The translations under genes and the position numbers were made by a program. From an uncultured SAR86 cluster bacterium (GTDB lineage Bacteria; Pseudomonadota; Gammaproteobacteria; Magnimaribacterales; AG-339-G14): 52,760 nucleotides of DNA. The notes beneath the pieces were generated by a model that was not told the DNA's origin, did not search any database, and saw only the letters and a list, made by a program, of their open reading frames with translations. The stretch spans positions 1-52,760 of the forward strand of contig CABZAV010000004.1 of assembly GCA_902523885.1 (NCBI GenBank). Reading direction: 5' to 3'. The first letter of the stretch is position 1, and the number at the start of each line of letters is the position of its first letter. Below are positions 40,553-43,062 of this stretch, one piece after another.

Positions 40553-41356
40553 ATGAAATTAGATGAAATTTTTTCAGTAAAAGGCAAAGTGGCTTTTGTA
40601 ACTGGAGGATCAAGAGGTATCGGTGAAATGATAGCTTCAGCTTATTTGGCCAATGGTGCAAAAGTATACATATCAGCACGAAAGGCAGATGCGTGTGATG
40701 CCAAGGCAATAGAACTTTCGGAAAAATATTCAGCTGAATGTATTTCCATTCCAGGCGACGGTTCAACAATGGAAGGTATTGAGAAACTTGTTGAGGAGCT
40801 TACAGCTTATGAATCAAAACTTGATATTTTGGTAAATAATGCTGGCGCTTCATGGGGCGAGCCCATCGATGAGTTTGCTGAAAAAGGCTGGGACAAAGTA
40901 ATGAACATCAATGTGAAAGGTCTTTTTTATATGACACAAAAATGTTTACCTTTATTAAGACCTGCGGGAACCAGAGAAAATCCAGCTAGAGTTATTAATA
41001 TTGGTTCAATAGATGGAATAGGAACACCAGTATACGAAAGTTATGTTTACAGTTCTTCAAAAGCTGCCGTGCATCATTTGACAAGAGTATTGGGAGCAAG
41101 ATTAGTAAAAGAAAATATACTTGTAAATGCAATTGCTCCTGGGGCTTTCCCAAGTAACATGCTTGGTTCGGCAGTTGGCCATGATTACAGTTACATTGAA
41201 AAAACTAATCCTGTAAAAAGAATTGGAACAGCAGAAGATATTGGAGGGTTAGCGCTTTATCTTTCATCAAGAGCGGGTTGTTATACAGTAGGAGAAACCA
41301 TTACTTGCGATGGCGGAGCTGTTTGTGCATCAGGCCATGCACTAATTACTGAATAA
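40553..41356 (+). CDS. Short-chain dehydrogenase, RhlG-like
   Basis: A 267-residue classical SDR. Cofactor site TGGSRGIGEMIA, NNAGASWGEP, catalytic Ser in INIGSIDGIG, Tyr-Lys in YVYSSSKAAVHHLT, and APGAFPSNMLG. The long insert between strands and the PGAFPS segment resemble RhlG-type NADPH-dependent 3-oxoacyl reductases, but members of this group act on various ketones. A strong Shine-Dalgarno (GGGAGAG, 40541-40547) precedes the ATG, 11 nt after panD. Confidence 0.87.
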   Translation: MKLDEIFSVKGKVAFVTGGSRGIGEMIASAYLANGAKVYISARKADACDAKAIELSEKYSAECISIPGDGSTMEGIEKLVEELTAYESKLDILVNNAGASWGEPIDEFAEKGWDKVMNINVKGLFYMTQKCLPLLRPAGTRENPARVINIGSIDGIGTPVYESYVYSSSKAAVHHLTRVLGARLVKENILVNAIAPGAFPSNMLGSAVGHDYSYIEKTNPVKRIGTAEDIGGLALYLSSRAGCYTVGETITCDGGAVCASGHALITE

Positions 41357-41381
41357 AAAAACCCCGCCGAAGCGGGGTTTT
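41355..41381 (-). terminator. Strong intrinsic terminator on the minus strand
   Basis: On the minus strand CCCCGC-TTCG-GCGGGG forms a perfect 6-bp GC stem closed by the extra-stable C(UUCG)G loop and extended by four A-T pairs, followed by seven T's in all. On the plus strand only four T's follow, so the element is oriented to end minus-strand transcripts: the putative sRNA and perhaps the DASS gene. It may also stop the plus-strand SDR gene less well. Confidence 0.9.
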
Positions 41382-41557
41382 AAAAATACGCATCTCAGCT
41401 ATATTTTTCTAATAACGGTCGAAACGGTTATTAGTCGGAATAAGGGTAAACCCTTGTCAGATGGTAACCCCTGAAATTCCTGATAAATTGTTAATATTAA
41501 TTTTTGATCACCTCCTGCACAGGGTAAATTAAAAGAATGCTAAATTTAGAGACCCTG
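41355..41557 (-). ncRNA. Candidate structured small RNA of about 200 nt
   Basis: A 266-bp gene-free gap holds, on the minus strand, a -10 box (41569-41564), a hairpin starting at the predicted +1 (CAGGGT/ACCCTG plus AAATT/AATTT, 41556-41519), an open stretch with AGGAGGTGATC, then three hairpins (AAGGG/CCCTT; CTAATAAC/GTTATTAG; AAAAATA/TATTTTT) and the strong terminator. No ATG-started ORF of size fits. It does not look like 4.5S, 6S, tmRNA or RNase P RNA. It could instead be the long 3' UTR of the DASS transporter mRNA. Confidence 0.4.
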
Positions 41558-41563
41558 ATATTA

Positions 41564-41569
41564 ATTCTA
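41564..41569 (-). promoter_or_regulatory. -10 box of the candidate sRNA
   Basis: TAGAAT on the minus strand, the same hexamer used before tRNA-Val(GAC), tRNA-Pro and tRNA-Arg here. Transcription would begin near 41557, at the base of the first hairpin. The -35 is weak. Confidence 0.35.
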
Positions 41570-41622
41570 AATTAGCGACATAAAATTAAATATTACTCCT
41601 ACTTTCTTCAAGTAACAATTAC

Positions 41623-43062
41623 CTAAATTAGATTTGGAATAAGAAAATAAGAGATTATAAAAACATACAAAATACTAGAGACATTGATGAATATTCCAGC
41701 TCTAACCATTTTTTGAATTGGAATTAAATTTGATGCATAGACAATAGAGTTTGGAGGAGTAGCCACAGGTAACATAAACGCACAACTTGCTGAAATTGTT
41801 AATGGCAAAATAAGCAGAAGGGGATCTATACCCATATTCAATCCTACACTAGCAACGACGGGCAAAAATGTAATCGTAGTTGTTAAGTTGCTTGTTAACT
41901 CAGTAAGGAAGACAACCATGACAATTACTGTTAATAAAATTATCCAAAAATAAGTTTCAGATGGAATTAAAGATGCTAACCATAAAGCCAATCCTGAATC
42001 ATTTACGACATATGCCAGAGCCATACCTCCACCAAATAAAAATATTAGACCCCAAGGAAAGCCGCTTTGCACGTCATCCCATATAAGTAGTTTATTTTTA
42101 TTTTTGCTTTCATTTATAAAAAAAAGCGAGACAGCTCCGGTGATAGCAATTACTGAATCATCTAACAATGATAGGCCTGGCAAGTTATCAATCAATTGTC
42201 TAAATATCCAAAAAAAGGCAGTGATTAAGAAAACCACTATCACTTTTTTTTCTTCATTTGACATTGGACCAAGTTCTTTTAGCATTGAATTTAATTTTTC
42301 TTTTGATTCTTGAGTAGCAGAAAAATTTACTGGAAAAATTATGCGAGTGAGAAATATCCAAATTAATGGCCCTAGACCTAATGTGATTGGCAAGCCGATT
42401 GATATCCAATTTGCGAAACCTATATCATAATCGTAATTATTACTGGCAAATTGAATTAACACTCCATTTGGTGAAGTACCAATTGGCGTAGCAATTCCTC
42501 CAACAGAGGCCGCATAGGCTATTCCCAAAAGCAAACAAAGTTGAAAATTAAATTTTTGATTATCACTAATGTCATTCACTGTATCACTTATAACTTTTAT
42601 TACTGATATTCCAACTGGCAGTAGCATGATTGCAGTAGATGTATTCATTACCCACATGCTCAAAACAGCACTAGCGACCATGAAAGAAGCCACAATGCCA
42701 CGAGAGTTTAGACCACTAAATTTAAGAATATTTAAAGCAACTCTTTTGTGAAGATTCCATTTTTGAATGGCAAGGGCAATAATAAATCCACCTGCAAAAA
42801 GAAATTGAACCTTGTTCATATATTCTCGACTAATTACGGCTATTTCCTCCACACTAAGTAGAGGAAAAAGAATTAATGGCATTAATGCAGTAACCTGAAG
42901 TGGAATTGCTTCAAAAGCCCACCAGACGCCCATCAATAAAAATACAGCAGCTGTAACTCTTCCCTCTGAAGATAAACCCTCTGGATTGGGCAAATACAAA
43001 ACTAATAAAAAAGAAATAATTCCTAGCCAAAACCCAATTGTCTTTAAATCTATAGATTGCAT
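41623..43062 (-). CDS. DASS (SLC13) family sodium/carboxylate symporter
   Basis: A 479-residue inner-membrane transporter with about 11 hydrophobic segments. It has both SNT-type substrate/sodium motifs of the family: GIATPIGTSPNGVLIQFA in the first half (about 190-205) and LPVATPPNSIVYAS in the second. Members import di- or tricarboxylates or sulfate with sodium, which suits seawater. The exact substrate is unknown. Its stop is followed by a 266-bp gap with a putative sRNA. Confidence 0.92.
   Translation of the reverse strand: MQSIDLKTIGFWLGIISFLLVLYLPNPEGLSSEGRVTAAVFLLMGVWWAFEAIPLQVTALMPLILFPLLSVEEIAVISREYMNKVQFLFAGGFIIALAIQKWNLHKRVALNILKFSGLNSRGIVASFMVASAVLSMWVMNTSTAIMLLPVGISVIKVISDTVNDISDNQKFNFQLCLLLGIAYAASVGGIATPIGTSPNGVLIQFASNNYDYDIGFANWISIGLPITLGLGPLIWIFLTRIIFPVNFSATQESKEKLNSMLKELGPMSNEEKKVIVVFLITAFFWIFRQLIDNLPGLSLLDDSVIAITGAVSLFFINESKNKNKLLIWDDVQSGFPWGLIFLFGGGMALAYVVNDSGLALWLASLIPSETYFWIILLTVIVMVVFLTELTSNLTTTITFLPVVASVGLNMGIDPLLLILPLTISASCAFMLPVATPPNSIVYASNLIPIQKMVRAGIFINVSSILYVFIISYFLIPNLI

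Follow-up and report, generated by a model that had tools for sequence, protein, structure and literature searches.

The gap between an SDR gene and a DASS transporter gene in the 52,760-nucleotide stretch of DNA analysed here (the window) holds, with high confidence, a real gene for a structured RNA, judging from its sequence and that of its relatives. Comparison of related loci shows a conserved 5' H-type pseudoknot, a multi-hairpin 3' part and a terminator, and a translated frame can be assigned to the RNA with good confidence, with AUU as the probable initiation codon. The reading that we favour, to which we give a probability of about 0.5, is that this stand-alone structured RNA of about 225 nt would offer a docking site to the 30S ribosomal subunit and would be slowly translated. 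We hold ribosome docking with moderate confidence, and any exact cellular role, be it sequestration, sensing or peptide production, with low confidence. A first-pass annotation of the window had proposed that the minus strand carries a new small RNA gene, and this is supported by compensatory changes in the stems, by a single match in each matching genome, and by occurrence in four SAR86 families (f1 to f4) and in a second lineage. That annotation lacked the 16S-complementary AGGAGGUGAUC and the 14-codon frame; the RNA appears not to be simply non-coding, its micro-ORF being very likely translated. The features of the gene are the following.

41355..41582, minus strand: whole RNA gene, about 225 nt, the conserved stretch from the -10-like box to the terminator, with a predicted 5' end
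41590..41618, minus strand: probable promoter, TTGTTA at 41618-41613, 17 nt, and TAATAT at 41595-41590, from sequence reading and the aligned -10-like box
41566..41576, minus strand: pseudoknot helix S1, 5' strand, GCTAATTTAGA, overlapping the TAGAAT of the first-pass annotation; alignment and crossing-helix scan, with S1 covariation in relatives
41539..41550, minus strand: pseudoknot helix S1, 3' strand, TCTAAATTTAGC, with one bulged base; alignment and crossing-helix scan
41552..41557, minus strand: pseudoknot helix S2, 5' strand, CAGGGT; crossing-helix scan; outer pair C-G, G-C or A-U by family, AGAG/CUCU in f4
41520..41525, minus strand: pseudoknot helix S2, 3' strand, ACCCTG; crossing-helix scan
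41506..41516, minus strand: AGGAGGTGATC, Shine-Dalgarno element, complementary over 11 nt to the usual 3' end of 16S rRNA, with a predicted duplex of about -21 kcal/mol
41457..41501, minus strand: micro-ORF, ATT at 41501-41499, 14 codons ININNLSGISGVTI, stop TGA at 41459-41457; comparative frame analysis
41437..41480, minus strand: closing helix P_a, GGAAT/ATTCC, 41480-41476 with 41441-41437, enclosing P_b and P_c; covariation count
Inside P_a, minus strand: hairpin P_b, CAGG at 41473-41470 and TCTG at 41461-41458; covariation count, varying on one side only
Inside P_a, minus strand: hairpin P_c, 41455-41451 with 41446-41442; consensus structure
41409..41434, minus strand: hairpin P_d, CTAATAACCG/CCGTTATTAG, with double changes in 6 of 7 pairs
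41382..41408, minus strand: hairpin P_e, with a conserved AGYTGAGATRC end and double changes in 6 of 6 stem pairs, f1 and f2
41355..41381, minus strand: intrinsic terminator, C(UUCG)G loop and T-run; terminator scan

The gap and its flanks are as they had been described, with the SDR gene at 40553-41356 on the plus strand, the DASS transporter at 41623-43062 on the minus strand, and 266 bp between the ends of the two ORFs (41356 and 41623) in the ORF list. The GC-rich terminator with its C(UUCG)G loop and T-run also lies where it had been placed, at 41381-41355 on the minus strand (one found, against a mean of 0.2 in shuffles). The beginning of the gene has to be revised. The TAGAAT box (41569-41564) that had been taken for a promoter is not conserved as one in the alignments, and four of its six bases lie inside the S1 5' strand. 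A -10-like box sits 26 nt further upstream, at 41595-41590, which puts the likely start near 41582 instead of near 41557 and the length at about 225 nt. Pairing does occur where a hairpin at the start had been proposed, as half of the pseudoknot and not as a stand-alone hairpin. The -10-like box is mostly TAATAT or TAAAAT in f1 (aligned over 27 f1 loci) and TATAAT in many f3 loci, and its spacing is similar in f2-f4 and the second lineage. The promoter boxes of the window hold 8 of 12 consensus bases, and a consensus scan with a threshold of 9 listed none. The RNA would be independently transcribed.

The stretch 41355-41570 folds better than its shuffles (z -3.43, 0/200), and the stretch 41380-41560, free of the terminator and the 5' end, folds weakly better (z -1.44, 17/200 shuffles). 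Single-sequence folding, being weak without the terminator, was rejected as proof, which is supplied by comparison. The search of related genomes with a covariance model, the check that had been suggested for this gene, found the stems kept and their strands co-varying. In aligned f1 and f2 loci both strands of the stems change together. In the core helices 96.9% of cells are paired (slid controls, 29-51%) and 103 cells carry double changes, against 31.0 in shuffles, with a number of pair types not clearly above shuffles (71/500 as high). One pair of P_a changes from U-A to C-G and the other 4 of its 5 pairs are invariant; by eye, the second lineage has a counterpart of P_a in GGGAGC/GCUCCC. 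Hairpin P_e was seen in f1 and f2 and not in the visible f3 and f4 rows of the alignment.

For the pseudoknot, helix S1 was counted separately in three sets, with strong covariation in the first and less in the other two. Among 18 f3 sequences it is 99.3% paired, with double changes in 8 pairs and 31 double-change cells against 8.6; in a 14-sequence f3 subgroup it is 97.8% paired, with 5 double-change cells against 1.5 and pair types not above shuffles (423/500 as high); and in the second lineage it is 95.5% paired, with 17 double-change cells against 6.9. The lower value of 76.9% for 32 pooled f3 sequences arises because two f3 geometries are offset by one column. S2 is near-invariant within groups, so that its support consists of changes between families. 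A pair of crossing, compatible helices is present in 38 of 38 representatives scanned (L097 gave no row). For 18 of the 38, no more than 0-1 of 40 shuffles reached its simple energy score, and in some this score was no better than chance (22/40 shuffles for L041, 18/40 for L093), and in a few representatives the top-scoring S1 is a different helix. RNAalifold proposed extra helices (columns 68-70/237-239 in alignment A1, 2-5/11-15 in A2) that are in competition with S2 and with the 16S complement, for which reason the models were built without them. L053 was excluded from A1 and A2; A3 comprises 32 of 54 unique f3 5' ends, those in one length register; and A7 comprises 23 of 30 second-lineage loci, with L271, L276, L278, L286, L288, L296 and L298 excluded as near-duplicates, N-bearing, cut or hard to align.

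The conserved GGAGGUGRUC lies inside an 11-13-nt complement of the usual 16S rRNA 3' end. It is kept in 31 of 31 best-scoring loci and in 35 of 36 further loci fetched by model match; the slice for the 36th, L100, was empty, and L100 carries the motif in the set of 78 stretches described below. In pattern-selected sets, the second-lineage loci included, its invariance is by construction, and the covariance model of the core (R1) was also trained on it. The window's own assembly has one GGAGGTGRTC site, within the RNA, against 4 sites for a control pattern, and no 16S tail was met among the GGAGGTGRTC sites of that assembly. Of 8 other SAR86 genomes, 6 show the 16S tail, which reads GGATCACCTCCT and then AA or TAA; in the other two, the f4 genomes G045 and G048, no GGAGGTGRTC site is a 16S tail, so that a match to their own 16S is not demonstrated. 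These eight genomes contain 25 other GGAGGTGRTC sites, and of the 20 fetched, 6 are the 16S gene antisense and the rest are coding by eye (one case tested). The predicted duplex with a 16S tail sequence supplied by hand has an energy of -20.8 to -25.5 kcal/mol, against -7.3 to -8.9 kcal/mol for two short Shine-Dalgarno sequences supplied likewise. Folding predictions leave the complement partly paired, with a probability of being unpaired of 0.00-0.58 over 24 representatives (0.15 in the window) and an opening cost of 0.4-9.4 kcal/mol (4.6 in the window). This predicted pairing counts against docking; it could also be a switch.

Downstream of the complement, the layout is constant. In 78 of 78 unique motif-selected stretches it is followed by 2-4 nt, ATT or ATC, exactly 14 codons and TGA, and the 14-codon frame is found in 35 of the 36 loci fetched by model match. 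The sole length changes among the 78 stretches fall in the 2-4 nt between the complement and the start, as expected of a Shine-Dalgarno spacer. The 72 unique frames from SAR86 and L137 contain no in-frame stop, against a mean of 87 in column permutations (0/2000 as low), whereas the other two frames contain 61 and 127. The absence of stops is significant over codons 4-14 (P 0.001) and over codons 4-7, the most variable (P 0.0035). N-bearing sequences were excluded from the permutation tests, and L298, which is cut, from the stop counts. Synonymous change in the frame is not in excess (0.22 against 0.21 permuted, P 0.34), and therefore the peptide sequence is not visibly selected.

In the second lineage, 19 of 23 unique sequences have the stop at codon 15, 3 have it at codon 16, and 1 has none within 54 nt. 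The stop is TAG in 10, TAA in 7 and TGA in 5, and its fixed position has a P of 0.004; stop absence over codons 1-12 is not significant alone in this lineage (P 0.19). Exceptions to the frame are L267, with 21 codons, and three members with 15. Stop codons interchanged at one place are hard to explain without translation, and we regard this as the best sign of it. A conserved frame with a Shine-Dalgarno element, as expected of a translated small RNA, is thus found. A GTG within the 16S complement was considered as start and rejected, being out of frame in several families.

When 151 relatives were searched at the DNA level, 63 had matches; the long ones, in f1 and f2, span the gap, and many of the short ones cover no more than the terminator. 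R1 matched 137 of 203 genomes of the SAR86 order, with one match apiece, a weakest E-value of 0.0086 and matches in all four families, and 36 of the 40 high-quality genomes. It gave no match in 66 of the 203, or in 4 of the 40 good ones; the f4 genome G045 is among those without a match, and a motif search found no RNA-like site in it either. A motif pattern scan of named genomes found 113 stretches. Across the class, with filters that lose weak matches, R1 matched 2 of 274 genomes, both SAR86, and two pattern scans of viral contigs gave 0 matches. A possible second copy in G043 (C1:443964) was rejected, as it lies antisense within a coding frame that we read as CcmC.

The second lineage was first seen as an R1 match, L137 (labelled SAR86 NORP90), in a genome of 3.6 Mb. 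The listed order-mates of L137 span 1.7-6.5 Mb, against 0.8-1.8 Mb in the SAR86 order, and the lineage is therefore taken as another order. A sequence model, R2, matches 44 of 137 genomes of the family of L137, the weakest near E 0.01. Over the order of G474 it matches 4 of 244: the matches in G474 and G611 are real, and those in G524 and G586 were rejected for want of the motif. All 30 fetched second-lineage loci, a motif-selected set, carry GGAGGTGATCCCAT[CT]A, and the pseudoknot strands, the promoter-like box and the terminator are visible in nearly all of them (L298 is cut). SAR86 bacteria are among the commonest in the surface ocean. A single-copy RNA present in all four SAR86 families searched and in a lineage with larger genomes points to a basic cellular role. 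The genes around it are arranged as follows.

INDEPENDENCE: f1, DASS upstream and convergent SDR downstream (window and 3 loci)
f2 neighbours: other upstream genes; downstream gene convergent in 3 of 6 loci, differing co-directional genes in 3 of 6
f3/f4 neighbours: co-directional EamA-like gene downstream in 7 of 7 loci read, Pfam-tested in one
Second-lineage neighbours: DUF6164-like gene upstream in 14 loci read (by eye; Pfam-tested in one); downstream ORF convergent in 12 of 14

In the f2, f3 and f4 loci that were read, neither flanking gene is thus that of f1. Since the neighbours change between lineages, a role as 3' UTR or leader cannot be general. The first-pass annotation had offered a long structured 3' UTR of the DASS mRNA as its alternative. 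In f1 the RNA does lie about 40 bp past the DASS gene on the same strand, and we find this reading barely credible, since the f2, f3, f4 and second-lineage loci that were read have other genes upstream and the -10-like box, promoter-like in its sequence, persists between gene and RNA. It is also quite improbable that the RNA is a leader or attenuator in which translating the micro-ORF would govern terminator formation and, with it, the reading of the downstream gene. The co-directional EamA-like gene of the 7 f3/f4 loci would fit such a role, and the odc1 and uORFC motifs, structured RNAs with short uORFs, are proposed as cis-regulators in the accessible part of PMC8632094. However, the gene beyond the terminator is convergent in the window and in 3 of 3 f1, 3 of 6 f2 and 12 of 14 second-lineage loci, with the RNA equally conserved, and the co-directional genes of the other 3 f2 loci differ from one another.

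The preferred reading of a docking RNA would work as follows. The 5' pseudoknot and the 3' multi-hairpin domain would flank an open stretch of about the size of the 30S footprint; S2 ends a few nucleotides before the 16S complement, and P_a, with which the 3' domain opens, begins at frame nucleotide +22. The open stretch would present the long 16S complement together with AUU or AUC at normal spacing, and the 30S subunit would dock there. The long Shine-Dalgarno element would hold the subunit, while AUU and AUC are poor starts proof-read by IF3, and for this reason translation is expected to be slow. The RNA may then serve to hold or gauge free 30S subunits or the state of initiation, and translation of the short frame would be a step of release or read-out rather than the production of a specific peptide. 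In Staphylococcus aureus, according to the accessible part of PMC13009471, infC and ccpN start at AUA and cvfC1 at AUU, each with a predicted extended Shine-Dalgarno sequence, and in poor medium reporters with non-canonical starts were expressed at about 10% of the AUG level. An extension of the docking reading, bold and in our judgement unlikely to hold in full, makes this RNA a ribosomal counterpart of 6S RNA: it would mimic an ideal translation start, capture free 30S subunits by a grip of 11-13 base pairs at an AUU or AUC that IF3 discriminates against, and release them on translation of the 14 codons, so that in streamlined marine bacteria initiation would be braked or gauged globally. 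If docking is true, one could ask directly whether the ribosome, like RNA polymerase, has RNA decoys or sensors in bacteria.

Other readings take the frame, the complement or the structure as the purpose. That the RNA is a tiny mRNA, made for its 14-residue peptide (I[SN]I....G..G... in SAR86, INSQSIKGASGY.. in the second lineage) with structure that only tunes expression, is unlikely in our view. In its favour are the fixed length, the fixed stop with its interchanged codons, the mostly kept Ile 1, Ile 3, Gly 8 and Gly 11, and about 12 residues that are nearly constant in the second lineage. The reading is opposed by the lack of synonymous excess, by the coincidence of the conserved codons with paired or near-invariant RNA positions, by the free variation of the last two residues in the second lineage, and by the few residues (I1, N/S2, G8) common to both lineages. 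By pairing with the tail of 30S subunits, free or precursor, the RNA might instead protect the 16S 3' end or mark defective subunits. An almost unchanged complementarity of 11-13 nt, longer than a Shine-Dalgarno needs, speaks for such a guard, but this role leaves the start codon, frame and stop at fixed positions unexplained, and we consider it improbable. A regulatory small RNA of known mode, titrating CsrA or pairing with mRNAs, seems more improbable than either of these. Three AGGA-like motifs can be seen by eye in f1 and f2, and 11 of 13 genomes tested have CsrA, but the GGA motifs do not recur in hairpin loops of the consensus structure, and no CsrA match was obtained in the f3 genome G041, where both the RNA and its 16S complement are kept (one genome, in which assembly loss is possible).

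As had been judged by eye, no familiar RNA was recognised: with Rfam 15 no family reached its gathering cut-off in the window or in 8 second-lineage loci, and all matches were sub-threshold. At E<=5 there were 33 of these, and the best two by E-value on the RNA's strand, istR and STnc100, align through the terminator. No description of this RNA was found in a literature search mainly of open-access titles and abstract openings. The RNA class, which we take to be real, is thus apparently uncatalogued, and an RNA with a complement of the 16S tail as its least variable part, joined to a non-AUG micro-ORF, is one for which we found no Rfam match or literature counterpart.

Some known systems resemble it in part. 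6S RNA mimics a promoter. Like 6S RNA (RF00013), the RNA would be a stand-alone structured molecule imitating a nucleic-acid substrate, here, as proposed, a translation start, and holding a central machine; 6S RNA is nonetheless a separate gene in these genomes, with no RF00013 match at the RNA locus and the match of the window's own genome on another contig (at E<=1 there are matches in 39 of 41 genomes, of which 21 exceed the cut-off). With tmRNA (RF00023) it shares a pseudoknot followed by a short internal reading frame, but RF00023 does not match at the RNA locus and has a full-score match elsewhere (C1:228036 in the window's own genome), and no tRNA-like domain was seen in this RNA. Spot 42/SpfP, SgrS and RNAIII are likewise small RNAs with a short translated frame. 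They pair with mRNAs through seed regions, whereas the near-invariant element of this RNA matches 16S rRNA. In infC, cvfC1 and ccpN an extended 16S complement also directs a non-canonical start, and these are, in the accessible part of PMC13009471, ordinary protein genes, unlike a stand-alone structured RNA with 14 codons. The odc1 and uORFC motifs, as far as the accessible part of PMC8632094 describes them, are structured RNAs enclosing a short uORF (11 residues without length variation in odc1) and sit upstream of the gene thought to be controlled, whereas this RNA has no constant downstream gene.

Several further observations were made. The 6S RNA of the window's own genome (G000:C1:113656-113827) scores 43.1 bits against the Rfam cut-off of 46.4, and standard annotation would therefore miss it there. 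CsrA was matched in 11 of 11 f1/f2 genomes tested and not in G041 (f3) or G042 (f4), which suggests a possible loss of CsrA within SAR86. The 16S tail reads CCTCCTAA in the f1 genomes G008 and G009 (loci L244 and L247), against CCTCCTTAA in the f2/f3 genomes read, a change that adjoins the anti-Shine-Dalgarno core, and in the f4 genomes G045 and G048 the 16S 3' end may differ or be masked. The end of P_e, AGYUGAGAURC (41402-41382 in the window), is conserved in f1 and f2 and was not seen in f3 and f4. Second-lineage loci such as L291 have a conserved box, GCTCCCATAMGTAG, between the ORF and the terminator, whose GCTCCC can pair with the GGGAGC of codons 7-9. In f3/f4 loci (L093-L096, L103 and L107, for example) the ATG of the EamA-like gene lies within a few bases of the terminator, and the place expected for the Shine-Dalgarno sequence of that gene is taken up by the 3' arm, GGGGG or similar, of the terminator hairpin; some f3 g15 loci look different at this junction.
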